A DNA stretch of 64,000 bases, taken from the NCBI GenBank assembly GCA_947561395.2, contig OX387192.1, forward strand, positions 17,334,221-17,398,220, given 5' to 3'. The notes below the pieces were generated by a model. It was not told the origin of the DNA. It saw only the letters and a program-made list of their open reading frames with translations, and did no database searches. The stretch is from Buxus sempervirens. Lineage: Eukaryota > Streptophyta > Magnoliopsida > Buxales > Buxaceae. The position numbers and the translations under genes were made by a program. This document shows positions 651 to 45,567 of this stretch, one piece after another. Numbering within the stretch: the first letter of the stretch is position 1; each line of letters starts with the position of its first letter.

Positions 651-678
651 TACAAAAATTTCATCCTCGAAATTTACC

Positions 679-8895: not shown

Positions 8896-8907
8896 TCTCT
8901 GATACCA
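8896..8907 (-). other. Primer-binding site of chromovirus A (tRNA-iMet type)
   Basis: On the minus strand TGGTATCAGAGA follows the 5' LTR end (...GGGGCGTTACA) after four bases. It is the classical plant PBS complementary to the 3' end of initiator methionine tRNA. Confidence 0.93.
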
Positions 8908-13864: not shown

Positions 13865-15672
13865 TGTGAGACATGGAAAATCAATCCAATGACTTCCTCA
13901 ATCATCACACGGGATTGTATAAAACTAAGAGTCGCCACCATTCAATTTAGGTGTGAATGGACACCAAAATATTAAATAAGCACAAAAGGCAATTTTTAGG
14001 GTAAAAATAACCCTCCTAAAAAACAACCAGAGATAGGTAGGGGGATTAGGTTATGAGTAGGGGAAGGTGTTAGGCACCCCTATTCATCCACACAAGGTGG
14101 TTGCCAGGCATTGTTCATGTTTAAATAAAGGAAAAAAAAGGCTTGCTATAAAATTCATGAAAAATCACAAAAAAGACAAAATTGTATGGTTTTTTCATAC
14201 GAATAGTCTGATTGATCCAGAATCTTCAAATATGATCATACCATTCCTAGGGTTTCATGATCAAAACAAAATTGAGATGAAATCAAATAAAATCAATTTA
14301 AAGTGAAAAATCCAAAAATCTGGCTTCAAGTCAAATTCTAGAAATCTAGAAAAATATGATTTTTATAAAATATTTCAAAATTGAACTTGAACAGTCCAGG
14401 ATATAGATAAAGCCCAAATTTCACATTAAATCCGAAAATCAAAACCAAAAATACCCATGTTGATGAAAAACACCAAAAGGGGAGAACTGAGACCGTAGGG
14501 TCTTCTCTCAATAATGAAAAACGATTTAAAAACCACATCATGAAACCCTAGAATTTATTTTCAGGCTTCTGGATCCAGATCTACCATATTGATCATGATA
14601 AATCTAGGATCCTAGCCTAAAACCACAAAAAGCACGAAAACAGTGCTGTAGGTGCAAAAGTGGTAAAAATCCAAATTTTATAAAAAAATAGGGGATCTCA
14701 TGCTATAAACATCATGGATTCATGTTATTCATTCAGATATATCATAAAAAGCATTAAAATATGATCAGGATATCCAAAGCAGCCACATCTCACAAATTAG
14801 AGCACATGGGGGTCTACCCTACGGATCCACCTGTTCTCTTTTCCCCTAGCTCTCTCTTCACGTTTTACGGCTAGAGAGGATTCTTGAGGTACTTGGAGAT
14901 AGGTTTGGTTATACAAACACAATCAAAGGCTTTATTCTAGAAGAAAAGAGAAAAACAGATATGGGGTTCTATTCTAGGGATCCACCTGTTCTCTTTTCCC
15001 ATAGCTCTCTCTTCACGTTTTATGGCTAGAGAGACTCTTGAGGTAATTAGAGGCAAGTTTTGGAATACTAGATACAAAAGATGGCCTTATTCTACAACAA
15101 TAGAGATGATCCTATTACTTCTAGAATTGAAATATGAAATAAAAGGGAAAAGGGACTTACCTGGATTGAGAAAGCAAGGCAGCAGGGGTTCCTCTTCTTC
15201 TCTTGGAGCTCTTGATTCTTCAAAATTTCGTGGCCCTCAGCTTGAGAATCTCACCTCTATTTATAGGCAAACACAGGGGCAAGGCTGGTCCAGTATTTGG
15301 CAAGATAGAATTTCAGTTTGAGTTAAATACAAGATAATGCCCATCCATAGCCAACCAAGGTGGCTTCAGCGAATAAAATACGTAATTCGCTCATTTAAAG
15401 ATATATTGGACTAAAGATAAAGCTCAGAAATCGAGAGAAGGACAAAACTCGCACGTGTCTTTAGTAACTGTAAATGAATTGCGGTCCAACTGTGACCGTA
15501 TGGTTACTACGGGCGCGCCTGACCGTAGAGAATTTTCGAGCACGACGGGCCCGTGAAGGAAATACGAGCAAAGTCTGCTTAGTCAGTTTTTATGCATTTT
15601 TGACCTGTTTTAAGCTCTAATTACATGTTTTTATTATTTTCTCATTCTGTAGTGCAATTTGGGGTGTCTACA
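13865..15672 (-). repeat. 3' LTR of Ogre 1 (1808 bp)
   Basis: Plus-strand ends are TGTGAGACATGG and TTGGGGTGTCTACA, giving TGTAGACACCCC...TGTCTCACA on the minus strand. The first ~693 bp are almost identical to 47826-48518 (one substitution, one A-run indel). The U5 contains TGGCGACTC (complement 13929-13937), the same nine bases that begin the PBS. A heptamer array lies at 15480-15569. The bases outside the LTR are cagca. Confidence 0.92.
15480..15569. repeat. 14-nt-phased heptamer array in Ogre 1 LTR
   Basis: Heptamers TGCGGTC (15480), GACCGTA (15494), TACGGGC (15508), GACCGTA (15521), a degenerate TCGAGC (about 15535), GCCCGTG (15549) and TACGAGC (15563). Spacing is 14 nt with one step of 13. 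Neighbours are complementary in turn. Confidence 0.82.
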
Positions 15673-15686
15673 GCTGCCTCCTCTTT
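15673..15686 (-). other. Polypurine tract of Ogre 1
   Basis: On the minus strand AAAGAGGAGGCAGC ends exactly at the 3' LTR start TGTAGACACC, the expected position for the plus-strand primer. The sequence 15687-16020 has no gene that I can support. Confidence 0.75.
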
Positions 15687-16020
15687 GCTGGTAATTGGAA
15701 CCAATTACAAGCAGAGAGCAAAAAGACCCACCAATTGCACTTTCTAAGATTTTTGTCTAATCAATTGCACTTTGTAAGGATTAAATGGATGATTTGAAAA
15801 AAGAATTGATTGTGGAAGATTTGGTAAGAAATCCCTCAGCTTAAGGGCCAAATCCTCCTCTCTCCTCTCACTGAGCACTTGTGGGCTATGAAGTGAGATT
15901 TGAGACAAAATTTTTAAACAAAAGTGGGTAAGGTGGCAATCCTTGCAACTTACAACTAATATGGACATTAATCTTTTGAAAAGTGTGGAGAAAATAATAA
16001 AATGTGCAATTTTTGGCTTC

Positions 16021-16124
16021 GCCCGTATTTCTATCACGGACAGATGCTGCCCGTAGTTTGTTCACAGGCGAATGGGACCGTATTGCTTTCACGGGCGTCT
16101 GATGCCCGTACTGATGTTACGGAT
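16021..16124. repeat. 14-nt-phased heptamer array upstream of gene A
   Basis: Eight alternating heptamers: GCCCGTA 16021, CACGGAC 16035, GCCCGTA 16049, CACAGGC 16063, GACCGTA 16076, CACGGGC 16090, GCCCGTA 16104, TACGGAT 16118. All steps are 14 nt except one of 13. The array ends TTACGGATTTTACT, the same ending as the array before gene B. A telo-box-like AAACCCTAA follows near 16180, in what looks like the promoter/5'-UTR region of gene A. Confidence 0.88.
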
Positions 16125-16449
16125 TTTACTCTCCTTCTTAAGACCGCGATCGCGAATTTTCTTCTTCTGCTCGCATTCAAACCCTAATTTCTCTGTGCCC
16201 GTGCTATTTTCTCCGGTCCTTGCTCTCTTCTTCTTCAACAGTGTTCGTCTTCTATCTTCGACGACCACTGATCTCCAGCGACTCTCTCATTCTCCGGCGA
16301 TCACTTGCTTCTCCGGTGAGTTTTCTTGTTTCCGGCGACCTTCAGAGCTCTTCAACCAGCGACATTGCAGCCGTCTTCCTTCTCAGGATTCCATTCGAAG
16401 CATCAATCATCCTCGAACCTCTTCTGTGGGTGAACAAATTGGAAGCAAG

Positions 16450-17528: not shown

Positions 17529-20347
17529 ATGGCTCGCCTTCGATCAGCCTCTAGGGACCCTGTAGATGAGCCTTCCTCTTCGAGGGTTAGGCGTGATCCT
17601 GCTGATGTGGCCTCGTCTTCGAGAGCCGAGAGGGATTCGGATTCTGATGTCCCTGATCTCCCTTCTGGGGATTCGCGTGAGGCGACCCCAGAGGTATACT
17701 CTAACCTTTCTGAAATTTCATATCCTTTCCAAAAATACATCCTCCTGATTCTTCAATTATTTTCTTTTAGCCAGCTGTTGAGGCTTCGGGCAGAGATAGG
17801 AGCCGTAGAGGGCGCCGCAGCGGAGGCAGAAATGGAGGCCTTGATGAGGGCCATAGAGGAGGCCGCAGAGGGGGCCGTGGCAGAGATGAGGCCAGGACCA
17901 GGGTTGAGATCCCTGAGGAGGTGGCTGCCCAGATTAGGGATACCGATCTTTTGCATGGCTTGAGGACTCATCCCTCAGTGTGTATTAGGGCGGATATCCC
18001 TTTGGAGTATCCTATGTCCCACTATAGAGGGAGCTGGGCCAGTTTCATTAGATTCTTGGGAGCCTGCAGTTCAGCCTACCGTCGGGAGTTAGGCTTATAT
18101 GGATTTGGCATGTTTATTACTATTCCGGACGTGCGCTTGGATCGGGCCCTCATTGCTGCATTGCTCGAGAGATTCTTCCCGGAGACTTTGAGCTTCCACT
18201 TCCCAGATATTGAGATTGGGATCCGGCCTTCTGATTTCACGCTCATCACCGGGATTAGGATGAACGGTTATGTTATTCCTGAGATGGCGATGCTAGAGGC
18301 TGATGAGGTTGCTGGTTATCTTGGATATATCGTGCTGCCTCCTAAGGCCTGGGATAGAAGGAGAGCGAGATTGTCTCTGACATGGTTGAGAGAGACCTTC
18401 AGGAGGAGGCAGTTTGGCCAGCTTGCTGCCAGTGACCACGTTTTCCCATATGCCTTCCGATTCCTCTTTCTGTATATGATGGGATCTTGTTTCTTCCCAG
18501 AGGACACGACTTCAGTTAGTCCTCATTTCCTGAGCTTACTGGGAGATCTTCAGCGGGCGAGGAGGTATGCCTGGGGCCCGCTTATTTTTGGCACTATTTT
18601 GGCCGGCCTTCGCCGATCAGTGAGCGGCCTCTCTACTTCCAAAGGGGCTGGAGTTGGGTGCCGATTCTTCTGGCCCTTTCTGCAGGTGAAACATCTATTT
18701 CCTTTCTTTTTCTCTTTCTCTCTCTTTTTCCCTTTTTTCCTATCTCTCCTTTTCTATTCCTCTAACTCTTTTCTTCTTTTTGCAGTTCTTTGCTAGGGTT
18801 TATATACCCTATTTCCGCCCTACCTCTACGGTGTCTGAGGAGATGTATCCCATGGCACGTAGATGGTGTCATGTAGAGCACGACTCTGAAAAGAGTCGTC
18901 CCAGGTCCGCCCAGGCCCACTTGGACAGGTTGTACCGGTCTGAGGTAATTTACTTTAATTCCTCTTCTCTCTTCTTTTCTTTTCTTCCTGAATCTTATAT
19001 CTAATATCCTGTTCCTTTTTTTAGCTGTTTGTCCCCAGGATGGAGGATATTCATGAGGTGCTGGCCCTGCATGCAGCCAGAGATGATGCATTTGTCCCTG
19101 ACCAGAAACAACAGAGATACCAGTTCTTTATTGGTCAGCTGGGTAGCATCTGGTACTGCGGCAAGCGCTTCTTCTTTCAGCATGTGGGAGAGCCGCGGAT
19201 TCCTGCCATCCCGCCAGATACTACTCCTTCCTACCCTCCTATGCCTGTTGATCCTGCCCAGTTCCTAGATTGGACTGAGGCAGAGACTTTATTAGAGGAG
19301 GGTGACTATGATGCCTGGTTCAGGCGAGCTTCAGTTGGGTGCCTCATGCCACCCATGCCTGTCCGTGGCGGAGTCACTGAGATTGGAGGGGTAGTGATTA
19401 GGGCTTATGACACTACGGTATGCCTTCTTCCTTTTCACCTTTCTATTTTCATTTGATCTTGACATTTTCTGACCCTTTCTTTTCTATTTCAGGAGGCTCA
19501 GTTGGCAGAGATCCGGTCTCGATATGCTGATCTAGAGTGCCAGCGAGATGCTGCGATCACCGAGCGGGATGCCCTTTATATTACCATTTCAGATCTCCGG
19601 GGGCAGCTAGCCAGAGCACATGGCCAGGAGGGTCCATCTGATGCACAGGACCAGGCGGGTCCATCTTACACTCAGGTTATTTTCTTCCTTTATTTCCATT
19701 CCTGCTATTATAATTGTTTATCTGGTTCTGACTGAAATTTCTTCTCTTAGTTTCAGGAGGACACAGCCGGCCCTTCTTCACCTGCTTCACCCGTGCCCAT
19801 GCATTTTCTAGATGAGGTATTTTCTGTGGCACGGGTGGAGTTCGTGACGTCTCCCAGTCCAGTAGAGGTTCCTGCAGCAGAGCCCGAGGTAGAGGCTACT
19901 GATATTGCACCTGCTGCTGAGGATGTGCCAGAGTCGGCCCCAGTAGCTGAGACTGCTCCTGTGGCATCTGCGGATGTAGATATGGATTCGGCTATGGACG
20001 CTGCTGTGGTAGAGCCTACTGTGGAGGCCGTGGTGATGGAGGAGGCTACAGTTGATCCTGTGCCTGAGGTGGATGCTGATGTACCAGGGACATCTGCTCC
20101 TGCTGGTCCTGCTATGGAGGCTATAGAGGAGACGCCTGCTGCTGCTGATCCTTCTGCGGATTCTTCCCGTATTGATTCTGATCCCGAGTCTACGGGATAT
20201 GTAGATACTTCAGGGTACGTCCTTCCTGATCATCCCATTGCTGGCCTTGTGCCTTTATATATGTGGCATGATATTCAGTCTGTTTTGAGCAGGATGACGC
20301 GTAGCACCGCCCGCAATATTGTGCGGCATGTCTTTGAGCGTAGGTGA
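17529..20347 (+). CDS. Gene A: plant mobile domain (PMD) protein, six exons, antisense inside Ogre 1
   Basis: Exons: 17529-17693, 17771-18685, 18786-18944, 19025-19417, 19493-19675, 19751-20347. All introns are short, GT-AG and phase 0, giving about 803 residues. The N-terminus is Ser/Asp-rich; exon 2 opens with an Arg/Gly-rich stretch, then the PMD (about residues 110-420) with LDRALIAALLERFFPETLSF, FHFPDIEIGIRPSDFTLITG and AWDRRRARLSLTWLRETF. Exon 5 is probably coiled coil; exon 6 is rich in Ala, Val, Glu, Asp and Pro. The TGA at 20345-20347 may be a decayed Arg codon, because the frame continues 20 codons through an RG-repeat tail to a TAG at 20405-20407. PMD proteins are known both as host proteins (MAIN/MAIL) and as passengers of Ty3/gypsy and MULE elements. 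Its job here is unknown. The intact splice pattern beside a broken gag-pro is notable. Confidence 0.8.
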
Positions 20348-20624
20348 TCTTCAGGCCGTGGTCGGGGTAGAGGACGAGGCCGTGGCCGTAGGGGCGGACC
20401 TGCATAGACAGTAGATTAAGATTTTTCATATATACTTGTATTTTTGACAAAATTGATGTAAACATTCATATATATATAAAAGAAATTTAATTTTCACTCA
20501 TTTGTGTTCTTTTCTGCTTTCTTTTTAGTATTTATTGCATGATGAATGTTAAAACAGGGACAGGTGAAGCTTAGGAAAACAAAGAAATTGAAACTGCCCA
20601 ATTTTTTGCATTTTTTTTCGGCAG

Positions 20625-20757
20625 AACCGTACTTAGACTACGAGCAGGCTATGCCCGTAATATGAACACGGGCACACTGTGCCTGTAAAGTTTTCACGGT
20701 CCCAGTCTGTCCGTATTCTTTATACGGGCGCCATATACCCGTAGTCTATTTACGGAT
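20625..20757. repeat. 14-nt-phased heptamer array upstream of gene B
   Basis: Ten heptamers at exactly 14-nt steps: AACCGTA 20625, TACGAGC 20639, GCCCGTA 20653, CACGGGC 20667, GCCTGTA 20681, CACGGTC 20695, GTCCGTA 20709, TACGGGC 20723, ACCCGTA 20737, TACGGAT 20751. Odd members are RCCCGTA-like and even members are YACGGGC-like, so each can pair with either neighbour. The array ends 24 bp before a TATA box. Confidence 0.93.
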
Positions 20758-20780
20758 TTTACTGCCTTAACGATTTTTTC

Positions 20781-20788
20781 TATATAAA
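20781..20788 (+). promoter_or_regulatory. TATA box of gene B
   Basis: TATATAAA lies about 92 bp upstream of the gene B ATG (20880), directly after the heptamer array. Spacing would place the start of transcription near 20810-20820. It drives transcription antisense to Ogre 1. Confidence 0.6.
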
Positions 20789-20879
20789 CTCATGGGGAAC
20801 GTCATTGTAACACTTTTAATAGTTTGAAAACTCCCTGAGCACGTCTTTTCACGCTTTCCTTGGCTTCTTTGGCGCTTCC

Positions 20880-22643
20880 ATGGCTTCCCCTACGCCGCTT
20901 TCTTCTGTTGTTGAATCTCCTCCTGCAAGACACCTTGTTAGATCAAAACCTCCTAATCTTACCAGGTACAATGTGGTAGATTCTTTTTATGACAGATGGG
21001 TTAAGACTGGTTAACTCCATGACCCTTGACGAGGAGATTCGTTGGAATTCCATCCACTTAGGGCATATCCTACACCTCCCTAAAATTCCCTTTAAGTGGG
21101 AAATCATTGAAGCTTTGATTGGACACTGGGTTCCTGAACTAAATCTCTTCCGTTTTGATGACAAAGAGATGACTCCTACCATAGAAGAGATTGAAACCAT
21201 CCTTGGCCTAAGATTTTCTGAAAAAGTTGTGAACCCGCCCCTAAAGCCTAGCTACAAAAAGGAGGCTTCCACTTTCCTGGGTATAGGGAAGAAAGACTTA
21301 GGGAATTCTGAAACCCTATTGACTTTGTCGAAGACCTTTTTGACTGAAAAACTTCTAAGGAGTGGGGACAAGGATTCTAGGTTTAATGCATTGACTCTGG
21401 TAGTGGTCAATCAGTTGCTTTTTCCACGGGGTGATGACCAGGTTGACTTGGCTCTTATCTCAATTATCTGCCAGGTTAGGGAACGTGAGAGGTTGGCCCC
21501 TATGATCTTAGCAGAGATATACCAGGCCCTTACTGACTGCTATTTCAGAAAGAAGAAGCGCTTCCTTGCCTGCGCCCCTATCCTACAGGTAAAAAAAAAC
21601 ACATGTATTTTTTCTTTTCTTTTTTTTTTCTTTCTTTTCTTTTCCTTCTTTTTTTCTTTCTTCTTCTCTTTTTTTTTCTTTTTTTTTTCTTTCTTCTTTT
21701 TTTTTTCTTTTTCTTTTTTTTTTCTCTTTTTTTTCTCTTTTTGGAAATAAATTGAAATACTCCCCTTTTCTGCAGCTTTGGTTGCTTGACCACCTTAGCC
21801 AGGTTGAAGAGATAATTCGCCGCTTCTTTCCAAGATTGAAAGTTCCTATTTTGATGAGCAATAGGGGGTGTCCTAATATCCAAGGCGGCAAGTAGGGATG
21901 GTTCACTTTCTTGGGTACTCTCCAGGATGATCAAGTGAGATGGCTTGGCACTTATCAGCCCAATCCAGAGACAGTGATCAGCTTCAGAGATAGGAACTTT
22001 CTGGTCCTGGCAGGCTTGAAATCTGCTGTTCTTTATCTTCCTTTGAGGGTTCTTCGACAGTTCGGAGCGACCCAGGGAATTATGATCCCCACTTATATCA
22101 GCCACCATGGGGCTAAATGCTTAATTAATGAATGAGTGGTCCTATGTTCACTTTCTGCGGGGTCCTGTCTTTTCTGAGTCCCATGTGAAGGACTATCACT
22201 TTTGGATCAAGGAGCAGGTGCAGAGTCATGCCCCAGTACCAGAGGATCCTCCTGCAGTTGTTCCTCCTACCTATGAGGACATTCTGGAGTCTGAAAGGGC
22301 AACCCATAGGCGGCTTCATCAAATATGGGTACGGGAGGCTCAAGAACTTAGGATAAAAGTCCTTGTTCTGGAGAGGAAACTTGAGGAGCAAAAGTCTGGC
22401 CGCATTGCCATGGAGAAAAAACTTGAAGAACAAAGGCAAGCTCGTCGCTTTGAAGTCCGAGTGATGCGGAAGAAGTATCAGGATTCCTTGGCCGACCTTA
22501 GGGCATTGAAGATCAAGCATTCTTTTTCAGATGAAGTCATCTCCTTCTTGAGTGATCCTGATGTGGAAGGAGCTTCTGGAATCATTGCAACTCAGGCAGC
22601 TAGGATTAGGGAGCTTGAGGAGCAGTTAGGGAGTAGGGATTAG
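20880..22643 (+). pseudogene. Gene B: DUF7745/PMD-like accessory gene, decayed
   Basis: Start ATG at 20880 (MASPTPLSSVVESPP). Exon 1 runs to 21588; the intron is 21589-21775 (GTAAAA...TGCAG, very T-rich); exon 2 runs 21776-22643. The conserved core is GHILHLPKIPFKWEIIEALI, then LFRFDDKEMTPTIEEIETIL, the wording of the DUF7745 family, which resembles PMD and is common in plant transposons. The last ~120 residues (EDILESERATHRR ... ARIRELEEQLG) look like coiled coil. Lesions: a frameshift near 20985-20995, a TAG at 21893-21895, and a shift near 22128-22135 at CLINE/NEWSYV. Family name from memory of motif wording; moderate certainty. Confidence 0.72.
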
Positions 22644-24836: not shown

Positions 24837-24841
24837 GTTTC

Positions 24842-27189
24842 TGTAAAACCCCGAATTTTCCTTAAATAATAAATTAAATTAGTAAATAATATTACCCAGA
24901 GTTATGATTGATAGAAACATTTTAATATTGTAGGGGGTGATCAACTTAGCGGAGATCCAGAATTAGACGCAGATCTGACCGTCCGATCATGAGATATCAA
25001 GGTATGTATTCTGATTGGGCGTGTGTATGGAATTTGGTATAGGTGAGACACATGGGATAAGTGAGTATAAGTATTAGTTTAATAACCTAAATTTATACGC
25101 GTGTATTCTCGCTCGTATTGATCAGCCGCAAGCGACAAGCGACCGAAGGAGAAGAAGAAGAAGGGGAAGAAGAAAAGCTTGGGTTTTTGGAGTTCTTCAT
25201 CTTCCAGAGTGTTGCTGGGTGATAGAGAAGCGTGGTTGAGAGAAGAGAGGAAGAGGAACCTTCGTTCAAGAGGTAGGTGACACCGTTTGGTTTTAAATTC
25301 GGATTTATCTTTGTTTAATCGCAAACGCATGTTTCTATGATATGTAAAGTTGTATTTAGTTAGCTAAGCATGTTATAAATACATTAGAATGAGTTTAGAC
25401 GAGAAAAATCGTGATTTAGAACTGTTTCTGCTCGATTTGGTGAGACCGCCGACCTCGACTGTGCGAGGCGCTCATCGGCGATCTTAGGCGCTGGTTAAAG
25501 TTTTGAGGACGCCGTGGACTGCGGGACGACGGACCGTGGGCGCTCGAAATTGCACTACCGCCGACTGATGACCGCCCGGAGCGATCCCAGGCGCTCTCAG
25601 CAGAATTTCCAATTTTTCATAATTTCGAACCTAATTCAATTCTAAACTATTTTTAGACAATTTTAATGATTAATTAAGGTACTTTAAGACCAAAATAAAC
25701 TACCTAAATCCCTGTTTTACAGAAAAACAAATTAGGGAGATATTTAGGACATTAGTTGCCAAGTTTTGAAGGTATATGAGAAATGTGATTTTGGAAAAGC
25801 CTAACTACCATTTGATTATCTAAACACTTCTAAATGGCATTATAAATCATAAGACATTATAAAGAGAATTCAGAATCCGAATGACGGAATAATGAAGTGA
25901 ATGTACAGATATAACCATTATATGCCGCTAGGCACCAACCCTTATAGAAATATGATACTTTAGGGAATTTTGGAGTCTAGTGGGCATAGCTGGTTATGGA
26001 TCCATAGTCGTAGCAAGATAGCTGAGGGATATGTCATTTGGGTTGAGTTACTCCTATATGCGACGCGCTTCCTTTGTAAGTTAGTTTGTCTGGGAAGGTC
26101 CTATGTCTGGAGGGACACCCCGGTGAGCCGCTGGTGATTCCCTGTACATGTGGATAAGCAACCACCTCCATGTATTGATTCAGGTGCTGCATGCTGGTGG
26201 TACATGCCAACTTTGATGGGTACGTGTGCAATAAGTCGGTGACTACGGCTCTTGTCTAAGCTGCGCTGCATGGGGCTTGAGTATCATTAGTAGCATCGCT
26301 CCTAAGTCGCACGGTGGTATAGCAATTGGTTGAGAATCATCTCAAAAGGTTTATCTTACTTTGTGAGTCCTACAATGACACTGAAAACATAACACTTGAT
26401 ATGATTACTATTGTGCACGTGCGGGATGCATGTGATTGGGATATTGGTTGGATGTGACTGCTTAGTACATCCTGGCAATGTATGGATTATGCTACTGATT
26501 TGGCTATTGAGTTCTTATATTAAAACTTGCTGAAAATCATTTCTAGAACTGTTATCAAACTGTTTTGTGTTCATGAATGGTATAAACGATTATGCGAGCC
26601 TGATTTATCGATGTTGCTTTATCGTGCATGAAATGTTACTTTGCTTATATTAACTGTTTAATCATGCATGTGTTACCTACTGAGATATTCGTATCTTACC
26701 CTACTTCTATTCCATTTTTTTTCAGCTGATACGCGAGAGGGGGATCTCTTAGACTTCCAGGGAGAGATAGCCGAGTATTCGCCGGAGGATTATTATTATC
26801 CAGATCTTGTCTGAGGTGGATTGATGTTATAGACTTAGCATTTTTAATTGGTTTATTATCATTTATTGGATTTGATGTATGAGAGAGACAAGAGAGAGTT
26901 AGTAACCAGTTCATTTTACCAGACTTTGATATTACTGACTGATGGTCAAGCTTTATGCTTGTTTGAGGATTTTGATCTACACTTCCGCACATACTTGTTT
27001 CCGCAACTCTGATAGTTTACTATATACATTGGATTTTCTTTCTTTGGTCTGGTATGTTATTGATGTTGTAATTGATATGGGCCAGTAACACCTCGGATTT
27101 GGTTTTTGAACTAAATTCGGGTTGTTACAGTAGCGAACCGGGTTCGGGTCGGGTGCCGGTTTGCACTGACCCGGGTTCGGGGCGTTACA
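24842..27189 (+). repeat. 5' LTR of chromovirus B
   Basis: TGTAAAACCCCGAATTTTCC ... GGGGCGTTACA, 2348 bp. It contains a CpG-rich block (about 25440-25610) of GGCGCT/GACCGCC words and several short palindromes between 26000 and 26300. No protein-coding content is believable in it. Confidence 0.95.
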
Positions 27190-27193
27190 GAGA

Positions 27194-27205
27194 TGGTATC
27201 AGAGA
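27194..27205 (+). other. Primer-binding site of chromovirus B (tRNA-iMet type)
   Basis: TGGTATCAGAGA four bases after the 5' LTR end, complementary to initiator tRNA-Met, identical to the PBS of chromovirus A. Confidence 0.94.
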
Positions 27206-27313
27206 AATGGTCCTAACCTTAGATTAGCCAGCTTTAGGGGAATGGGATTGGGAGTACGCTAGATAGAACCCCTAGAATTATTGGATTCTAACAAGTGAAA
27301 TTGTATTTTGCAG

Positions 27314-28320
27314 ATGGCTGGTAGGGGAAGACGTGCTAGAGTTGATCCTATTGAGGAGGAGCAGCAGGATGTTCCACTACCTCCACCACCTCCAGGGGTG
27401 ATATATGGACTGTTGTTGGCACCTTGGCAGAGCTTCTTGCCAAGGAAAGGGAGGAGAGACTGAGCCAGCATGGCAATGGCGGAAATGGTGGCAATGGTCA
27501 CGGAGAGGAGCCTATACATGAGCAGGCCATACATACGGCCAAGGATCTTGAGCAATTCAGGAAATTGGATCCACCTATCTTCAGTGGACGACCAGATCCT
27601 ATGGAGGCTGAGAGATGGCTGATGCGAGTCGAGTGGATTTTTGAGGCTATGGGATGCCCTATGGACCGGAGAGTGCGTTTGGCAGCATTCTTGTTTGAGG
27701 GAGAGGCAGTGCACTGGTGGACAGCCAGAAAGAGGCAGGATCCACAGGCTACGTACATGACTTGGGATAGATTCCGAGAGGTCTTCTATGACCAGTATTT
27801 TTCTGAGGAAGTTTGGCTCAAGAAGGAGCGGGAATTTATGGAGATTACTCAGGGAGGCCAGACGGTGGCTCAGTACGAGGCTAGATTTGCAGCCTTGTCC
27901 CGATTTGCACCTCATATGACACAGGATGAGAGGAGGCTGACTTCACATTTTGAGCGGGGTCTGAAGCCTGAGATTAGGAGTATGCTGACAGTACTCTTGT
28001 GCACCGAACTGAAGGACGTGATACGTAGAGCCACTAGAGCTGAGAGTGACTTGGAGGCTAGAGCGAGCCAGAGCAGAGCTAGGCCATCTATGGGGCCGGC
28101 AGATCAGAGAGGTTTCCTTAGTGGGAACAAGAGACCCAGAGACTGGACTAGGGCAGAGCCTGCAGGAGGACAGTATAGAGCAGTTCCGAAGGCATGTGCC
28201 AGTTGCGGCGATACCATGTTCCTGGACCGTGTGTTGCAGCGCCAGGCACCTGCTACCGATGTGGTAGGCCGGGTCACAGGATCACGGATTGTCGATTTCC
28301 TACTACTTATCAGCCGTTAG
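27314..28320 (+). pseudogene. Chromovirus B gag
   Basis: ATG at 27314 (MAGRGRRARVDPIEEE). A one-base deletion near 27400 shifts frame before the gag domain, which then reads DLEQFRKLDPPIFSGRPDPM ... VHWWTARKRQ and YEARFAALSRFAPHM. A second one-base deletion near 28207 breaks the frame just before the zinc knuckle ([14 protein letters not shown]), which continues in the next frame. Gag packages element RNA in the cytoplasmic particle; this copy could not do so unaided. Confidence 0.93.
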
Positions 28321-30737: not shown

Positions 30738-31943
30738 GAACTTAAAGGAAATCTATTGGTGGTCAGGAATGAAGAGAGAGATTGCAGAGTATGTGGCAAA
30801 GTGTTTGATATGCCAGCAATTGAAGGCCGAGCATCGGAAACCACCTGGTTTACTTCAGTCACTTCCTATTCCAGAGTGGAAGTGGGAGCATGTGACTATG
30901 GATTTTGTATCAGGGTTACCACTGACAGCAAGGAAGGAAGATGCTATTTGGTTGTTGTGGATAGACTGACTAAGTCCGCACATTTCTTGCCTATGAGCAC
31001 TTCGCAGCCGATGAAGTCTTTAGCTGAGTTATATGTCAAGGAGATAGTGAGACTTCATGGAGTGCCAGTTTCTATAGTGTCTGACAGAGATGCACGATTC
31101 ACAGCACGCTTTTGGCTTGCATTTCAGGCAGCTTTGGGGACTAAGCTTAATTTCAGCACTAGTTATCATCCTCAGACAGATGGACAGTCTGAGCGTACCA
31201 TTCAGACTTTGGAAGACATGTTGAGATGCTGTGTTATGGATTGGGGAGGCAGTTGGAATCAGCACCTACCATTGGTGGAGTTTGCCTATAATAACAGCTA
31301 TCAGGCGAGTATTTAGATGGCACCATTCGAGGCACTTTATGGCAGACCGTGTAGATCCCCAGTGTGCTGGGTGGAAGTTGGTGAAAGATAACTCATTGGG
31401 CCCCAGATTGTACAAGATAGCATTGAGAAGGTGAATCAGATTAGGCGAAACATGCTTACAGCCCAGAGTCGTCAGAAGAGTTATGCAGATACTAGAAGAA
31501 GAGATTTGCATTTTGAAGTTGGTGATTGGGTATTTCTGAAGATATCACCATCTCGTGGAATCAAGAGATTTGGAAAGAAAGGCAAATTGGCTCCAAGATA
31601 TATAGGTCCGTTTGAGATTAAGGGTACAGTGGGACCATTAGCATACAGATTGGCTTTACCTACACAACTGGAAGGAGTTCATGACGTATTCCATGTTTCT
31701 ATGTTGAGGAAGTACGTGCATGACCCTACTCATATCATTCAGCATGAGCCGATAGTAGTGCGAGGGGACTTGACTTACGAGGAGCATCCAGTTGAGATTT
31801 TGGACAGGAAGGAGCAGGTTCTTCGTACTAAGGTGATACCATTTGTGAAAGTACTTTGGCAAAATCACACGACTGAGGAAGCTACTTGGGAATTGGAATC
31901 AGAAATGCAGAGGAAGTATCCCAACTTATTTCCAGAACCATAA
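30703..31943 (+). pseudogene. Chromovirus B integrase with chromodomain
   Basis: H-H-C-C module ending CLICQQ, then the catalytic core with SDRDARF and GQSERTIQ (Glu retained) and a C-terminal chromodomain ending RKYPNLFPEP. Lesions: a one-base deletion near 30945 at IWLLW/VVVDRL, TAG at 31314-31316 and TAA at 31389-31391, both where Gln is expected. The chromodomain (about 31780-31930) is intact; in chromoviruses it directs integration to marked chromatin. Confidence 0.93.
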
Positions 31944-31971
31944 GGTAAATTTCGAGGACGAAATTTTCTTT

Positions 31972-31984
31972 AAGGAGGGGAGGA
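31972..31984 (+). other. Polypurine tract of chromovirus B
   Basis: AAGGAGGGGAGGA directly precedes the 3' LTR start TGTAAAACC at 31985. Confidence 0.9.
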
Positions 31985-34332
31985 TGTAAAACCCCGAATT
32001 TTCCTTAAATAATAAATTAAATTAGTAAATAATATTACCCAGAGTTATGATTGATAGAAACATTTTAATATTGTAGGGGGTGATCAACTTAGCGGAGATC
32101 CAGAATTAGATGCAGATCTGACCGTCCGATCATGAGATATCAAGGTATGTATTCTGATTGGGCGTGTGTATGGAATTTGGTATAGGTGAGACACATGGGA
32201 TAAGTGAGTATAAGTATTAGTTTAATAACCTAAATTTATACGCGTGTATTCTCGCTCGTATTGATCAGCCGCAAGCGACAAGCGACCGAAGGAGAAGAAG
32301 AAGAAGGGGAAGAAGAAAAGCTTGGGTTTTTGGAGTTCTTCATCTTCCAGAGTGTTGCTGGGTGATAGAGAAGCGTGGTTGAGAGAAGAGAGGAAGAGGA
32401 ACCTTCGTTCAAGAGGTAGGTGACACCGTTTGGTTTTAAATTCGGATTTATCTTTGTTTAATCGCAAACGCATGTTTCTATGATATGTAAAGTTGTATTT
32501 AGTTAGCTAAGCATGTTATAAATACATTAGAATGAGTTTAGACGAGAAAAATCGTGATTTAGAATTGTTTCTGCTCGATTTGGTGAGACCGCCGACCTCG
32601 ACTGTGCGAGGCGCTCATCGGCGATCTTAGGCGCTGGTTAAAGTTTTGAGGACGCCGTGGACCGCGGGACGACGGACCGTGGGCGCTCGAAATTACACTA
32701 CTGCCGACTGATGACCGCCCGGAGCGATCCCAGGCGCTCTCAGCAGAATTTCCAATTTTTCATAATTTCGAACCTAATTCAATTCTAAACTATTTTTAGA
32801 CAATTTTAATGATTAATTAAGGTACTTTAAGACCAAAATAAACTACCTAAATCCCTGTTTTACAGAAAAACAAATTAGGGAGATATTTAGGACATTAGTT
32901 GCCAAGTTTTGAAGGTATATGAGAAATGTGATTTTGGAAAAGCCTAACTACCATTTGATTATCTAAACACTTCTAAATGGCATTATAAATCATAAGACAT
33001 TATAAAGAGAATTCAGAATCCGAATGACGGAATAATGAAGTGAATGTACAGATATAACCATTATATGCCGCTAGGCACCAACCCTTATAGAAATATGATA
33101 CTTTAGGGAATTTTGGAGTCTAATGGGCATAGCTGGTTATGGATCCATAGTCGTAGCTAGATAGCTGAGGGATATGTCATTTGGGTTGAGTTACTCCTAT
33201 ATGCGACGCGCTTCCTTTGCAAGTTAGTTTGTCTGGGAAGGTCCTATGTCTGGAGGGACACCCCGGTGAGCCACTGGTGATTCCCTGTACATGTGGATAA
33301 GCAACCACCTCCATGTATTGATTCTGGTGCTGCATGCTGGTGGTACATGCCAACTTTGATGGGTACGTGTGCAATAAGTCGGTGACTACGGCTCTTGTCT
33401 AAGCTGCGCTGCATGGGGCTTGAGTATCATTAGTAGCATCGCTCCTAAGTCGCACGGTGGTATAGCAATTGGTTGAGAATCATCTCAAAAGGTTTATCTT
33501 ACTTTGTGAGTCCTACAATGACACTGAAAACATAACACTTGATATGATTACTATTGTGCACGTGCGGGATGCATGTGATTGGGATATTGGTTGGATGTGA
33601 CTGCTTAGTACATCCTGGCAATGTATGGATTATGCTACTGATTTGGCTATTGAGTTCTTATATTAAAACTTGCTGAAAATCATTTCTAGAACTGTTATCA
33701 AACTGTTTTGTGTTCATGAATGGTATAAACGATTATGCGAGCCTGATTTATCGATGTTGCTTTATCGTGCATGAAATGTTACTTTGCTTATATTAACTGT
33801 TTAATCATGCATGTGTTACCTACTGAGATATTCGTATCTTACCCTACTTCTATTCCATTTTTTTTCAGCTGATACGCGAGAGGGGGATCTCTTAGACTTC
33901 CAGGGAGAGATAGCCGAGTATTCGCCGGAGGATTATTATTATCCAGATCTTGTCTGAGGTGGATTGATGTTATAGACTTAGCATTTTTAATTGGTTTATT
34001 ATCATTTATTGGATTTGATGTATGAGAGAGACAAGAGAGAGTTAGTAACCAGTTCATTTTACCAGACTTTGATATTACTGACTGATGGTCAAGCTTTATG
34101 CTTGTTTGAGGATTTTGATCTACACTTTCGCACATACTTGTTTCCGCAACTCTGATAGTTTACTATATACATTGGATTTTCTTTCTTTGGTCTGGTATGT
34201 TATTGATGTTGTAATTGATATGGGCCAGTAACACCTCGGATTTGGTTGTTGAACTAAATTCGGGTTGTTACAGTAGCGAACCGGGTTCGGGTCGGGTGCC
34301 GGTTTGCACTAACCCGGGTTCGGGGCGTTACC
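31985..34332 (+). repeat. 3' LTR of chromovirus B
   Basis: Same length (2348 bp) as the 5' LTR with about 14 substitutions, among them agacgc/agatgc, taccgc/tactgc and gccgct/ccactg changes at CpG sites. The terminal base is C in place of the usual A. Followed by target duplication gtttc. Confidence 0.95.
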
Positions 34333-34337
34333 GTTTC

Positions 34338-39280: not shown

Positions 39281-40066
39281 CCATATGTAAGCACCTCATT
39301 TTTGCGCTCCCGGAAAAGCCAGAAATGCAAACCCTGGACAGAAAGTCAAACCCTAAGGGGTGAAAAGTTGACTTTTTGATCAAATAAAATTTGGCCACCT
39401 TGCTTTATCTCATTGGATAGAGAATCTCGACACGGTTCCAACGCAACTGAGTTTACAGGAATCGGAGTCCGGATGAAGGTTCTGCGGGCGGTCAAACTTA
39501 AGGAAGAGCCGAGAGTTGACTTTTCCTCTAATTCCGTGCCAAGTACCTTGCTCTATACCATTGGATAGAGAATCTCGACACGGTTCTGACGCAACTGAGT
39601 TTGCACAGATCGGAGTCCGGATGAAGGATCTATGAGCCGGTCAAACTTGAGGGGAGCAGAAATTGACTTTCTGCTAAACCCCAGAACAGCTGCCCAAACT
39701 TGTCCCAATGGACAAGTCATCCTGACACGATTCCAATGCAATTGAGTTTGCTCGAATCGGAGTCCCGGATAATAAGTTATGAGCAAAACAAGAAACCCTA
39801 AAAACTGCCCACATGGCAAAGACAGCAGAGAAAATAGCAGAAAAAGGTGTCTGGGGGCAAATCCGTAAATAATCAGGACAGTCAAAAATATCTGATGGCA
39901 TATCTGTAATTATCTGGGGACGAATCTGTGAATATCAAGTTGATGAGAAAATAGCTCAAGGACCAATTTGCAATTTCTAAGAAAATCACCCCACATGTTT
40001 AATTCCCCACCACATCCTTCCCTCCCTCTCTCTCCTCCATAACTCATCCCCCATTCCCCACCACAT

Positions 40067-40359
40067 CTTTTTCTCTCTCTCTCTCTCTCCTTCATAAATC
40101 CATGTCCCCTATGCATCCCCCCATACATCATACCATCATGCAAACAACTCTCTCTCTCTCTCTCTCTCCCTCATGAACATCCATGCATGCACCTCATCTC
40201 ATCTCTCTCTCTCTCCCTCTCATGATTAATGTTCCCTATGCATGCACCCCCCATGTATCATGCATCATAGCATCATACATCTCTCTCTCTCTCTCTCTCT
40301 CTCTCCTTCATAAATCCATGTCCCCTATGCACCCCCCATACATCATGCATAAGCATGCA

Positions 40360-40391
<32 letters not shown>

Positions 40392-40395
40392 CCCC
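40067..40395 (+). repeat. (CT)n microsatellites in solo LTR 2
   Basis: Four or more runs of TCTCTC of 16-26 bp separated by CATGCATGCA-type segments. A similar pyrimidine-rich tract precedes the 5'-UTR-like stretch at 40500-40620. Confidence 0.9.
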
Positions 40396-41808
40396 CCATG
40401 CATGCATGCCCATCCTTCATGCCACATAATAAAACCCCCCAAAGCCACATACGTATGGTCTCTCTCATTTTTGAGCACACTTTTCATCTCCCACCATTCT
40501 TCTTCTCCAAGAGCTCCAACCTCTCTCCGATCTCTCCCAAGCTCTCTCATCTCTCCCAAGCACCTCACCTTGCTCCATCTACCACTTTTTTCTTCTTCTT
40601 CTCCACTCTCACTCAAGCAAAGGGGGAAGGTTTTCTATTGGTGGTGCCAAGAGAGGGTCCAGCCTTGGTCCTAGCTCCAAGGAGGCTCCACACATCCTCT
40701 ACAAGGGGTCAAAACCCAAGGTGAGCTTTCTTGGGCCATGTTGTTTAACATATGTAAATATGAGTTCATTCGGAGCATGTGAGTCCTCAAAGATGCTATA
40801 ATATTCTGTTTGTGCATGTTATGGATGTTTTCCTCTTGTATTATTACCTCTTCATGTCTTTTATGGATCATCACTCTTCTAAGGTAAGGAAGGTAAGTTC
40901 CCATTAGTTTAAAGTGAGGAGGAGGGGACTCCTTAGTTGATCTAAATGGTCTAAAGGTCATTGTAGGTTTGCTGTATTTTTTTTAGTGTAAAGCCGTTGT
41001 ATTGTTAGTGGTTTCTTTCCACTTAAAGGAGGAGTATGTTCCTCTAATGCAAGTCTAATGTATCCCCCAAGTAAACCCCCTTCTTTTCCCTTCCTTGGAT
41101 ATTGTATTCTTAAACTAAGTGGGTAAGTTAGGACAACATGTGATGCATGCTAGGTACGTTTTTATTTTATTTTTATTTTTATATGATTAGATTGTCACTT
41201 TGCGGATGTGCGGATCTATCTCTATATGGAGCATATATGTTGTTACTTTTAAACCATACAAGTATATCATTTTTTGCTAGTTATTTTGCATGTTTGATCA
41301 CGATGTCTTCACCCCATCAAGTTGCTGATTTCGGCTCCATGGAGTTACTCTACTTGGTTTACTATTCGTCCCACTTGCTCATTTACTTGTTCTCATGTCA
41401 ATAGCATGTTTAGGTTTTCTGGGTATGCCATTATAAAATCTATTTTCTACACTTTTTAAGCACAATAACATGCACTCACATATCTTGATATGAAACCTAC
41501 CTATTAAAGCATGTCTCATATTGTTTGGCTATTTAATTTGTGTACCATGGTTGTCTCTTTTTGAGCATGAGATACCCAAAACAGGGAAGCTTGATCCCCG
41601 TTTAGGTGCTGGTCCCATTGCAAGAGAAAGAAGGAGGGGAAGCCCCCACTTTCCCTCTAGTTTGGCTTGAAGAGCCTCAAAGAAGAAGCAAGGTGGCTCT
41701 TCTCCAAACCACTGTGGGCTCACACAGGAGCCCACACAACCCCTGAAACACCCCAAGGAGCCCAAGAAACCAACCCCATTGGAAAAATCCAAAAAATGGA
41801 TTTTTTAT

Positions 41809-41915
41809 GTTGATCCGGCAACTCAGGCCGGATCAACAGAGATCTGTTTGTAACCGGCGAAGAATGCCGGATACACTGTCCTGTGTGCGTAGCCGGCATC
41901 TCAAGCCGGCTACAC
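41809..41915. repeat. 39-bp-period CCGG hairpin array in solo LTR 2
   Basis: CCGGC cores at 41815, 41854 and 41893, exactly 39 bp apart. Stems: GTTGATCCGGC/GCCGGATCAAC (11 bp, perfect), GTAACCGGC/GCCGGATAC (one mismatch) and GTAGCCGGC/GCCGGCTAC (9 bp, perfect). Loops are 7 nt: aactcag, gaagaat, atctcaa. Confidence 0.93.
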
Positions 41916-42984
41916 TGCCAGATTCCCCTTTTTGCTATTTTGAGATATTGTGTTGATTTTTTTGGTTCATTTGATCAAACCAGTCGAACCAGAAGGGTTT
42001 CCGGGTCACTCGGAAACCCAAGATGGGCCTTGGACACCCGGTCCAAATTAATTCCCGGTGGGCCTTCCAACAGGGCCCACCAAGCCCGACAAACTCCTTT
42101 TGTTAAATAAAGATAAAATCAATCCATTTGAGTGGGCCACACCATTGGAGGCCCACCCAAGCCCAATTTTGAAGTATGTTGATCTAGACTTAGATATGGT
42201 TTGGCCGAGGCAAAGGGCAGGGCCTATCGGGCCCACTAAGCCCATTAACCAACCAAGGCTAGGGTTTCCAAACCCCATCTCAGAAATTCTTGGGCTTCCA
42301 AGCCCGAGACCAGGTAAAGGGCCCCAAGCCCAGTGCTTGGCCCATTTTGGCACAGATAAGAAAGATAAATCAAAATCACTTGGCAACCGACTGTGTGGCC
42401 CACTCAAGGGCCCACAAACAGTCCCGGCCCACTTTTGGCATGAAATCCATTTAAATAATCCGACTTAAACCTTAAAGTAAAATTAATTCATTTGAACCAA
42501 AGCCCAAAGGGCCTCTCAGGCTAGACTGAGGCCCACAAGGGACACGTGGGCTCAACCAAGCCCACCAAGGAATCCACGGGCCTTCCAACAGGGCCCGCCC
42601 ACTCAGACTCGTCTCACTTTAAAGCTAAAAAGATAAAATCAAGTAAAGGGACCCGCACCACTTTGGCGGTCCCGCCAGACTTAAACAAGTGTGCATGCTG
42701 GAATAGGAATCGGGTGAGTGAGAGACCAGAATTGACTCAAACCAAGGAAACGTATGGGACCTGTCACTTGACGGGGTGGACTGGGGTGTCTACGGACTTC
42801 CCCAGACCGCAACTGAGAACCTACTTAGAATCTCAAGCCGCAGACCAAGCCTTAATAGACAAACTTAGGCACCCAGGTGTCTGCCTGCACCCTATCAGGC
42901 AGTGGCGACTCCAAACAAACCCCGAGGCACGCATCATTTTGCGTGCGCCTCGTCGTGCGACCGAAATCGGGTGCGTACACCATA

Positions 42985-44105
42985 TTTACCTCACCCTCCT
43001 TCTTGTTCCCATTCTTCTTTATCCCGCTTCCTTTCTTCAGATTAGGGTCTTGCTGACTAACCATGGCAGAGTGGTCAATTATCTTACCTGACCTGATCCC
43101 GTCTTCTATTCGGTCAGCCACTTGAACCAAGGCAGCAAAATTAGTGGTGGTCTGACCCACCAGGTGGCTGTAGAATGGTTGACCCAAAGTGCTGATGAAA
43201 GTAGAAATCATTTCCTGTTCTAGCATGGGTGGCCTGACCTGGGAGGCCGTCTCCCTCCACCTCTTGGCATATTGCCTTACAGTCTCATCCCTTCCTTTGC
43301 TCATTCTCATGACGTCGTACCTGTCTGGCACGATCTCTGAATTGAACCGGTATTGAGCCAGGAAGGCATCGGCTAGGTCCTTCCATCTTTTGATCCTTTC
43401 ATGGTCCAGAGTAGTAAACCATCTTAATGCGGTTCCAGTCAGACTCCTTTGGAAAAGTTGGATCAAGATACCCTCATCCTGCCCGAACTGGCATAGGGCA
43501 CCGCAGTATAACTTCAGGTGGCTCATGGGGCAACCAGTGCCATCATACTTGTCCAAGTCTGGGCACTTAAACTTAGCCGGCAGGTTAACATTGGGGTATA
43601 GGCACAGGTCTTCAAAATTGGTGCCCCCAAAGTTGTTTACCCCTTTGACTTTTCTAAGTTCATCTTGGATCATTTCTAGCTTATGCATGAACTTTCTTTC
43701 AACCTCTTCCCTTATCCTTTCCTTTTCCTTAGCCTTGTTTGACTCAGCTGTCTCATCCCTGCTCAGTATAGGTTCAGGGGTAGGTTCATAGACGGGTTCA
43801 GGAGTTGGTTGCACTGGAGGTGGAATGTTGACTTGGGGTGGAGGTGCAGGGTTGGATGTGGATGCCTGGTTCTGGGCCTGCATTTGTTGGGCCTGCACTT
43901 GTTGGGCTTGTACAGCCAATATGTTCTCTAACATTCGGGCTAGTCCTGCTACTTGTTCTTGGAGTAGAACAACATCTGGATGAGGAGCATCAGCTTCATC
44001 TTCAATGGGATTCATGGCGCGAGCTCTTGATCTGGTTACAGGAGCTATGATTGCAAGTGTATTAGTACCTGGATATAAAATAAAGGAAAAAGTGTCAGTG
44101 CCCAA
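42985..44105 (-). pseudogene. Ogre 1 gag, N-terminal and central part
   Basis: Open on the minus strand from 44105. A plausible start is the Met in RARAMNPIEDEADAP at about 44012, or an exon beginning after TATCCAG near 44070. It contains a Gln/Pro-rich linker, a Lys/Glu coiled stretch (EERIREEVERKF-like), and the gag domain: LPAKFKCPDLDKYDGTGCPM, SHLKLYCGALCQFG, RWKDLADAFLAQY, YAKRWRETASQVRPP, TTTNFAALVQVADRIEDG. The region is intact here, interrupted only by solo LTR 2. Gag forms the particle that packages element RNA. Confidence 0.88.
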
Positions 44106-44279
44106 TTAATCTCATTCACATGCCTAGGAATGCCGATGTGCAAGCTGGGTGAACACGAGTTTGGATTTTTTCTTTATTTGCTTTTTTTTCTTATTTTTTT
44201 TTTGTTTTTTGTTTTTTTTTGAAATTGAATTGTTGGAATATTCTAGGGCTTCCAACAGGTCCCACAAAAGAGAGAAAGG

Positions 44280-45276
44280 TTTGAAATTCAAAGGCTTTCA
44301 GAGGCCCGGGGGTTTTTTTGAAAAAGGTCTGAAATTCAAAGGCTTTCAGAGGCCCAGGGATATTTTTGGAAAAGGTCTGAAATTCAAAGGCTTTCAGAGG
44401 CCTAGGGATATTTTGAGAAAAGGTCTGAAATTCAAAGGCTTTCAGAGGCCCGAGGATTTTTGATGAAAGTCTGAAATTCAAAGGCTTTCAGAGGCCCAGG
44501 GATATTTTGAGAAAAAAAGTCTGAAATTCAAAGGCTTTCAGAGGCCCAAAGATTTTTGATGAAAGTCTGAAATTCAAAGGCTTTCAGAGGCCCAGGGATA
44601 TTTTGAGAAAAAAAGTCTGAAATTCAAAGGCTTTCAGAGGCCCAAAGATCTGAAATTCAAAGGCTTTCAGAGGCCCAAAAGAAAAAGGTCTGAAATTCAA
44701 AGGCTTTTAGAAGCCCAAAAGATCTGAAATTCAAAGGCTTTCAGAAGCCCAAAAGAAAAAGGTCTGAAATTCAAAGGCTTTCAGAGGCCCGAAGATCTGA
44801 AATTCAAGGGCTTTCAGAGGCCCAAAAGAAAAAGGTCTGAAATTCAAAGGCTTTCAGAGGCCCAAAAGTTCTGAAATTCAAAGGCTTTCAGAGGCCCAAA
44901 AGAAAAAGGTCTGAAATTCAAAGGCTTTCAGAAGCCCAAAAGATCTGAAATTCAAAGGCTTTCAGAGGCCCAAAAGAAAAAGGTCTGAAATTCAAAGGCT
45001 TTCAGAGGCCCAAAAGTTCTGAAATTCAAAGGCTTTCAGAGGCCCAGGATTTTTGAAAAATCTGAAATTCAAAGGCTTTCAGAGGCCCAGGAGTTTTTTT
45101 GAGAAAAAAAAGTCTGAAATTCAAAGGCTTTCAGAGGCCCGAGGATTTTTTGAAAAATCTGAAATTCAAAGGCTTTCAGAGGCCCAGGATTTTTGAAAAA
45201 TCTGAAATTCAAAGGCTTTCAGAAGCCCAAGAGTTTTGAAAAATTTTGAAATTCAAAGGCTTTCAGAAGCCCAAGG
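44280..45276. repeat. 24-copy tandem repeat in the Ogre 1 leader
   Basis: The core TGAAATTCAAAGGCTTTCAG followed by AGGCCC or AAGCCC occurs 24 times, separated by variable A/T/G spacers of 6-25 bases (GGGATATTTTGAG, AAAAGAAAAAGGTC, GATTTTTGATG). Each core is itself an inverted repeat (CTGAAA/TTTCAG). A related hairpin TTGGAA/TTCCAA lies just left, at about 44232-44257. It sits between the heptamer array and gag. Confidence 0.95.
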
Positions 45277-45434
45277 AACCTTTCTCACACATTTTTTTTA
45301 TTCAATTATTTTGTTTTTTTTTTTATTATTTTTTTTTGAAGCATTTTATTCAAACTTGTTTCCCTTTAATATTATTTAAGGGTTAAAGGAAGATTTTAGT
45401 GGGAAAAACTGATTAAAGTTGAATCCTCCGAGAA

Positions 45435-45567
45435 AACCGTATATTCACCACGGTCCGGCCTTGCCCGTGTTCATATTACGAGCAAGCCGTGACCGTATGA
45501 CCAACACGGGCGAGCCTAGCCCGTATAACCAATACGGGCGAGCCCAGCCCGTGTACTAAATGCGGTT
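45435..45567. repeat. 14-nt-phased heptamer array in the Ogre 1 leader
   Basis: Ten heptamers at exactly 14-nt steps: AACCGTA 45435, CACGGTC 45449, GCCCGTG 45463, TACGAGC 45477, GACCGTA 45491, CACGGGC 45505, GCCCGTA 45519, TACGGGC 45533, GCCCGTG 45547, TGCGGTT 45561. Read on the minus strand it shares CGTAATATGAACACGGGC with the plus-strand array before gene B (from about 20656). Confidence 0.94.

Follow-up and report, generated by a model that had tools for sequence, protein, structure and literature searches.

Why should a plant retrotransposon carry the same short word, switching strand at every step, at four separate places along its length? The question is raised by a stretch of 64,000 nucleotides (nt) of the Buxus sempervirens genome (assembly GCA_947561395.2, contig OX387192.1, positions 17,334,221 to 17,398,220; hereafter the window). 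Its minus strand holds Ogre 1, a Tat-type Ty3/gypsy retrotransposon with gag, reverse transcriptase (RT), RNase H and integrase recognized by Pfam between its long terminal repeats (LTRs), and with a candidate primer-site sequence adjoining the 5' LTR. The name Ogre is kept, as a label only, from an initial annotation of this DNA. Antisense to pol, in the interval from integrase to the 3' LTR, are two genes, A and B, each of which encodes a plant mobile domain (PMD) protein. We find that four arrays of alternating complementary heptamers in Ogre 1 are conserved among its copies, and that a sister group of elements marks the same four places with a different word. On this evidence, we think it rather probable that the arrays serve a self-specific regulatory circuit and are recognized by a factor that the element itself encodes, probably PMD-A together with PMD-B.

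Phased arrays of a strand-alternating heptamer

A recount of the heptamers confirmed the four arrays described in the initial annotation, with 10, 10, 8 and 7 members. The leader array (45435..45567) and the array upstream of the antisense gene B (20625..20757) each comprise 10 heptamers joined by nine steps of exactly 14 nt. The strict 14-nt phase that had been claimed for the whole set holds for these two, whereas the gene-A promoter array (16021..16124; 8 heptamers) and the LTR array (15480..15569; 7 heptamers and a degenerate eighth at 15466) each include one 13-nt step, from 16063 to 16076 and from 15508 to 15521, respectively. The claimed placement at the LTR, the leader and the gene starts stands for all four arrays, with the qualifications that 1.8 kb separate the gene-A array from the PMD-A exon that follows it and that the truncated 5' LTR has no array. 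A TATA box on the plus strand (CTATATAAACTC, 20780..20791) follows the end of the gene-B array by 22 nt. The LTR array occupies LTR positions ~104-193, on the U3 side, and a TATA box in the sense direction (CTATAAATAGAGG) is found ~210 nt downstream of it. The repeat of this word, motif 1, is a 28-nt unit composed of GCCCGTR, seven AT-rich nt (GC content 0.22), YACGGGC and seven mixed nt (GC content 0.54); its core is TACGG, and position 6 is the loosest.

We scanned the window with a score for eight alternating sites at phase 14 (maximum 56), using 60 first-order Markov simulations as a control. The four top peaks were the four arrays, with scores of 53, 51, 35 and 34; the best of the simulations reached 33, and other phases between 10 and 20 never exceeded 32. 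Such values put the leader and gene-B arrays (53 and 51) far outside what chance would give. The other two (35 and 34), in the LTR and before gene A, have their phase broken by the 13-nt step and beat the simulations only narrowly; their case rests on conservation in other copies.

The phase is equally evident across the genome (676.5 Mb, 247 contigs), where the initial annotation had proposed a pattern search: the three-site pattern YACGGGC-N7-GCCCGTR-N7-YACGGGC matched 10,529 times (5221 + 5308), versus 0 + 0 for the reversed control. Distances between good sites (at least 6 of 7 positions matching), tabulated in 94 DNA sources with no filter on phase, peaked at 14 nt (193) and 42 nt (173) for opposite strands, with 10 counts at 13 nt and 2 at 15 nt, and at 28 nt (209) and 56 nt (118) for the same strand. 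Because 28 of the 94 sources had been chosen by the 14-nt pattern, the count was redone on 71 sources not chosen in that way, giving opposite-strand distances of 14 (92), 42 (71), 13 (6) and 15 (1), and same-strand distances of 28 (90) and 56 (51). Individual steps, counted in 71 distinct arrays of at least four sites by a script that favored 14 and considered 13 to 15 only, measured 14 nt in 415 of 431 cases, 13 nt in 15 and 15 nt in one.

Conservation of the arrays in other copies

The leader array keeps its place and phase in seven other copies, a set biased toward intact arrays because all seven were found through the strict 14-nt pattern. The gene-B sample was not chosen by its arrays: from 6015 candidates we scored 150 gene-B matches, all at least 93% identical, and for 20 of these 150 best matches the upstream sequence was fetched. 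Array sites were present upstream of gene B in all 20 copies, and a full gene-B type array in 16. The gene-B TATA box is exact in 17 of the 20, carries one change in L077 and is missing from L068 and L087 (L-numbers denote fetched genomic loci). The gene-A array is conserved in L044, the one other copy compared, and the LTR array, compared in five 10-kb loci, is kept in other copies.

Within the arrays, the sites are better conserved than the spacers, with values of 0.958 versus 0.839 for gene B (n = 19: the 16 copies plus the window, L044 and L045) and 0.979 versus 0.915 for the leader (n = 8). The spacers of Ogre 1 vary along each array, and every array retains its own spacers and site variants across copies.

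Double-stranded sites or RNA folding

Sites that alternate between strands can also pair with one another, and the arrays could be RNA structures, that is, hairpins in the genomic RNA for packaging, dimerization or export, or else DNA cruciforms. We regard this as improbable. Three of the arrays do fold strongly as single strands when compared with shuffles (z-scores of -7.4 / -8.5 for the leader, -8.5 / -5.7 for gene B and -4.6 for gene A), and variants within the leader array correspond in a nested fashion (pairs 1:10, 2:5 and 6:9). Strong folding is not diagnostic, since any inverted repeat yields it, and folding of the LTR array is on a par with that of shuffles (z = -0.85). The placement of arrays just upstream of the antisense TATA boxes is, moreover, a feature of DNA promoters.

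The initial annotation had linked the phase to two alternative folding registers. This explanation gained no support when compensatory double changes were counted: there were 10 in 81 distinct minus-to-plus neighbor pairs (permutation mean 11.2) and 6 in 68 distinct plus-to-minus pairs (permutation mean 7.3), so that the 149 distinct motif-1 neighbor pairs show no compensatory change above chance. When all plus-minus site pairs were considered, the gene-B arrays had 5 complementary versus 5 noncomplementary double changes, and the leader array 2 versus 0. Compensatory change had looked promising in single arrays, namely in the LTR pairs and the leader variants, but the overall count did not sustain it. 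Since motif-1 neighbors vary with no compensatory excess, the heptamers behave as separate double-stranded DNA sites, which fit motif 1 better than folding registers do.

A different word at the same four places

A second word, motif 2, was first seen among the direct repeats of the window and consists of GTATCCGG-N9-CCGGATAC palindromes at an exact spacing of 39 nt. Exact motif-2 palindromes number 20,444 genome-wide, versus 0 for the reversed control, and among the matches listed those of one cluster mostly follow one another at 39 or 78 nt. Four of them, in 39-nt steps (56225..56366), lie in a solo LTR of the window (56135-58444; target site duplication AGTAG) that is homologous to the LTR of Ogre 1; there they occupy LTR positions 91-232, matching the place of the motif-1 array in Ogre 1. 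Also among the matches listed, five places on contig 1 (C1) have an LTR array, an internal array ~5 kb before a second LTR array, and that second LTR array, and we took these as five elements. The internal array precedes gene B in the three that were read (L088, L089 and L090).

In L088, which is 92% identical to Ogre 1 in RNase H and 90% in integrase, four palindromes followed by a TATA box precede gene B; two palindromes followed by TTTTATAAG precede gene A, with a core promoter that looks, by eye, like its Ogre 1 counterpart; and the LTR contains four palindromes. The place of the leader array in this element was predicted and then fetched, revealing four palindromes 39 nt apart between flanks 78-82% like those of Ogre 1. 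At places worked out from this first element, the leader array was found in all four further elements (three of them blind; L103 had one unit already listed) and the gene-A array in three of the four, which brings the totals to five of five elements for the leader and four of five for gene A. The array finder detected no motif-1 array in L088-L090 or L099. A TATA box directly follows the array at gene B in both groups and at gene A in L088.

Both groups, then, mark the LTR, leader, gene-A and gene-B places, each with its own word and phase. The initial annotation had held that related elements lacking the phase would speak against its proposal; the relatives with the other word do depart from it, having a 39-nt phase, yet they carry the module at the same places. 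The suggestion of a common protein-binding regulatory module, perhaps for an element-encoded protein, appears to be borne out by the gene-B TATA box 22 nt away, by the PMD genes and by the other word at all four places in the sister group. A different word at the same four points suggests that each element may have its own private switch protein.

We also observed that the first leader palindrome reads TAACCGG/CCGGTTA, with both arms changed, in all five motif-2 elements read (L099:1217 and L100-L103), the right arm having one further change in L101.

The antisense PMD genes

Gene A contains a PMD exon (17921..18700, plus strand; PF10536, 62.3 bits, 6e-17) and a putatively linked, likely 3' exon whose translation is acidic and rich in Ala and Pro (19793..20347, plus strand). 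Exon 1 of gene B (20989..21594, plus strand) matches both DUF7745 (3.5e-21) and PF10536 (47.9 bits, 1.4e-12), and its 3' part (22128..22643, plus strand) is coiled-coil-like by eye. Both genes are above the PF10536 gathering cut-off of 34.9 bits, as are relatives, and Pfam reported only PMD/DUF7745 in them and no VANC, a result that comes from Pfam and not from comparing the genes directly with VANC. The two PMD exons close with a shared ...LQVK stretch, in which LQ|VK likely reflects a splice donor, CAG|GTAA. An Arg/Gly-rich stretch lies in frame just before the PMD of gene A (~17780-17920), and likewise in the motif-2 PMD-A of L088; nucleic-acid contact is a possible role for it. A comparison of gene B with a large protein collection gave 128 candidates, none of them scoring. 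The 30 best of 117 scored PMD matches in the genome (from 8447 candidates) lacked a motif-1 array at distances of up to 1.5 kb, and no alternating word of another kind was prominent among them; since genes A and B of the window themselves score below that list, this survey is no test of the link to Ogre elements.

The two PMD proteins differ sharply in their divergence between the groups. Integrase identity between groups is mostly 90-91% (89.6, 90.9 and 90.1% for the window versus three motif-2 copies; 91.4% for L098 versus L088; 93.0 and 81.2%, in two pieces, for L096 versus L088), and exon 1 of PMD-B is 80-84% identical, whereas PMD-A is only 49-52% identical. Within the motif-1 and motif-2 groups, respectively, identity is 94-95% and 97-98% for integrase, 87-93% and 96-98% for PMD-A, and 93% (L045; at least 93% among the 150 best matches, a selected set) and 95.5-97% for PMD-B. 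The rate of nonsynonymous substitution (dN) between groups is lowest for integrase (~0.05), intermediate for gene B (~0.11) and highest for gene A (~0.45). The ratio of nonsynonymous to synonymous substitution (dN/dS) within groups is 0.04-0.15 for A, 0.10-0.11 for B and 0.06-0.10 for integrase. This purifying selection implies that the PMD proteins matter to the element. The concerted difference in the word is accompanied by a large divergence of PMD-A.

Arrays in other families

Both words also occur in the LTRs of a second Tat family (TGTGCGCACCCGATTTCGG...GGTGCTTACA). Motif-1 arrays are found in its LTRs at L001, L040, L041 and L046, and motif-2 arrays at four places in the window: 3274-3374; 41811-41913, within a solo LTR (~39286-42978) inserted in Ogre 1; 52033-52096; and 54143-54387, in another LTR of the family. 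The spacers of the second-family arrays are near-identical. LTRs bearing either word would be expected in this family if the same factors acted on unrelated LTRs.

One element, lying between motif-1 array places at C1:9888449 and 9904794 and taken as a member of the second family, encodes a relative of PMD-B (42% identical) in one unbroken frame (L053:986-2479, C1:9891585-9893078). The gene is on the sense strand, 5' of gag, and lacks the intron of gene B; the C-terminal half of its product is akin to the coiled-coil-like part of gene B. Another element (L052), with gag but no pol found inside, lies between motif-1 array places 11.5 kb apart that were taken as its LTRs. Some array-bearing elements may therefore rely on a factor produced elsewhere.

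Structure of Ogre 1 and surrounding DNA

The 3' LTR of Ogre 1 (TGTAGACACC...GTCTCACA) spans 13865..15672 on the minus strand, and the 5' LTR (47826..48521, minus strand) is truncated at 48521. Besides the second-family solo LTR, Ogre 1 has been interrupted by a gypsy element (24842-34331) and by a copia solo LTR within its leader (46026-47067), which is 94% identical to a copia LTR at 59646-60686. Between gag and the leader array lies ~1 kb of 40-48-nt tandem repeats with an inner palindrome-like CTGAAATTCAAAGGCTTTCAG (44275-45280), which is also found in L042 and L045. The first part of the window (1-11234) is a separate gypsy element with LTRs at 1-640 and 10595-11234 (98.8% identical), broken by a second-family Tat LTR at ~2246-5560.

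Discussion

We propose that the arrays are cis-regulatory DNA modules, in which phased, strand-alternating sites would be bound by one sequence-specific trans factor acting on four control points: the LTR promoter, the leader, the gene-A promoter and the gene-B promoter. The factor would most likely be encoded by the element, with PMD-A as the recognition part and PMD-B as its more conserved partner, and we infer that these proteins bind the arrays. Working as a transactivator or an anti-silencer, it would act back on the antisense genes that encode it and increase transcription from the LTR in the sense direction, the positive sign of the effect being itself a conjecture. Related elements would have changed the recognized word at all four places together. 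More tentatively, and as somewhat short of an even chance, we extend this to PMD proteins of Tat/Ogre elements in general: these may be self-specific DNA-binding regulators in which PMD-A and all four arrays switch specificity together, splitting sister elements and unrelated LTR families into regulatory groups, much like a lock-and-key arms race with host silencing.

Several observations weigh against an element-encoded PMD factor acting through these sites. PMD is not a proven DNA-binding fold: a sequence search found no relative in the PDB, and an AlphaFold model of PMD-B, with PMD-A as the sole other row of the alignment, reached a predicted local distance difference test (pLDDT) score of 33 and was not used. 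Stop codons interrupt two of the five motif-1 PMD-A copies compared (one of two in L044, and L097), and the motif-2 PMD-A comparison draws on only three sequences from a single contig, within its first 4.3 Mb. Since dS of gene A is saturated between groups, A may have been swapped by recombination rather than only having evolved fast; an exchange of the 3' end alone fails to explain the leader, because the leader is on the far side of the conserved pol region. Nor is every array in place. The gene-A stretch of L106 has no motif-2 unit, and the gene-B array is partly replaced in two of the 20 copies (L082 and L083). Two others (L068 and L087) have a gene-A type array and no gene-B TATA box. In L082 and L083, foreign sequence joins within the gene-B array and the proximal sites remain; in L068 and L087, the gene-A type array and promoter stand directly upstream of gene B, as would result from a deletion of gene A between the two arrays.

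The arms of motif 2 pose a further difficulty, and one that favors RNA structure. In 33 units, 6 double changes were complementary versus 1 that was not, with a permutation mean of 0.92 and none of 5000 permutations as high. These coupled changes amount to approximately four independent events, because three LTR stretches of the second family share one variant, and a second variant is fixed in the leader. They could also be the product of template switching on quasi-palindromes. By extension, tandem duplication and quasi-palindrome correction during reverse transcription might keep producing phased palindromes that have no function, and the near-identical spacers of the second family look as they would after recent duplication. 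We consider it very improbable that the arrays as a whole are such a by-product, given that the Ogre 1 spacers differ along the arrays and are retained together with site variants across copies, that sites are better conserved than spacers, and that the same four functional places are marked in two groups.

The second-family element with the PMD-B relative raises the last point against a PMD-A factor: the stretches read contained only the PMD-B-like gene and yielded no PMD-A, and the element would therefore need the factor of another element. This finding would suit an explanation by host transcription factors: these would bind the arrays, and the element would do no more than gather host sites in its promoters, with the divergence of the PMD proteins a coincidence. 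Promoter position and TATA spacing suit any activator, and both words are shared by the second family. We nevertheless find a host factor unlikely, since each word has a fixed phase of its own and is present at the full set of four places, and the elements read differ completely in their word despite ~90% identical integrase; host factors would not readily explain so exclusive and concerted a switch.

For a self-specific circuit, the closest worked-out parallels are VANC anti-silencing and the Tas protein of foamy viruses. In VANDAL elements, Arabidopsis DNA transposons of the Mutator-like class (MULE), the published account describes a sequence-specific anti-silencing system in which the element-encoded VANC protein binds a short motif that recurs in the element's non-coding regions and removes methylation, related elements using different motifs as protein and motif diverge together (PMC5735166). 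Here, too, a short motif is enriched in non-coding regions and differs between related elements, but the element is a class I LTR retrotransposon, and its candidate binding proteins are PMD rather than VANC. Tas is reported as one element-encoded activator for the LTR and an internal promoter (PMC8670036, PMC4929722). In Ogre 1 the same sites likewise stand at LTR and internal promoters, although the internal promoters are antisense and the arrays long and phased. To our knowledge, the Tas protein family is unrelated to PMD.

Among plant retrotransposons, Grande (gene23, PMC7264820) and Retand (TRP28, PMC11963269) also have antisense open reading frames (ORFs) between pol and the 3' LTR; those of Grande have their own promoter (PMC7264820), and TRP28 has been suggested to regulate by binding DNA (PMC11963269). 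The accessible parts of these accounts mention neither target arrays in cis nor targets that change in concert, and genes A and B have PMD as their domain. MAIN and MAIL1, PMD proteins of the host, have been tied to a promoter motif and to transposon silencing (PMC7156037, PMC9899485), and the parts of the account at hand leave open whether they touch chromatin (PMC9899485). Unlike genes A and B they are host genes, and the DOWN motif of the MORC1 promoter (CATGCAGTTT), as given in those parts, resembles neither word. It was the sole known plant motif compared, by eye. We found no account of such arrays in literature titles and abstract openings, mostly outside subscription journals, and an earlier description is possible.

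An extra ORF with PF10536 has been reported in 57% of Ogre elements (PMC6317226), and Ogre 1 carries two such genes. The literature, in the portions available, gives no function for the PMD genes that many Ogre elements carry, and the arrays offer a concrete candidate target for a PMD protein. With such a target, and with two sister groups as a built-in control for specificity, the question can be answered by one binding experiment. If the proposal is true, plant LTR retrotransposons would own private transcription or anti-silencing circuits, the targets of which can be swapped as a set.

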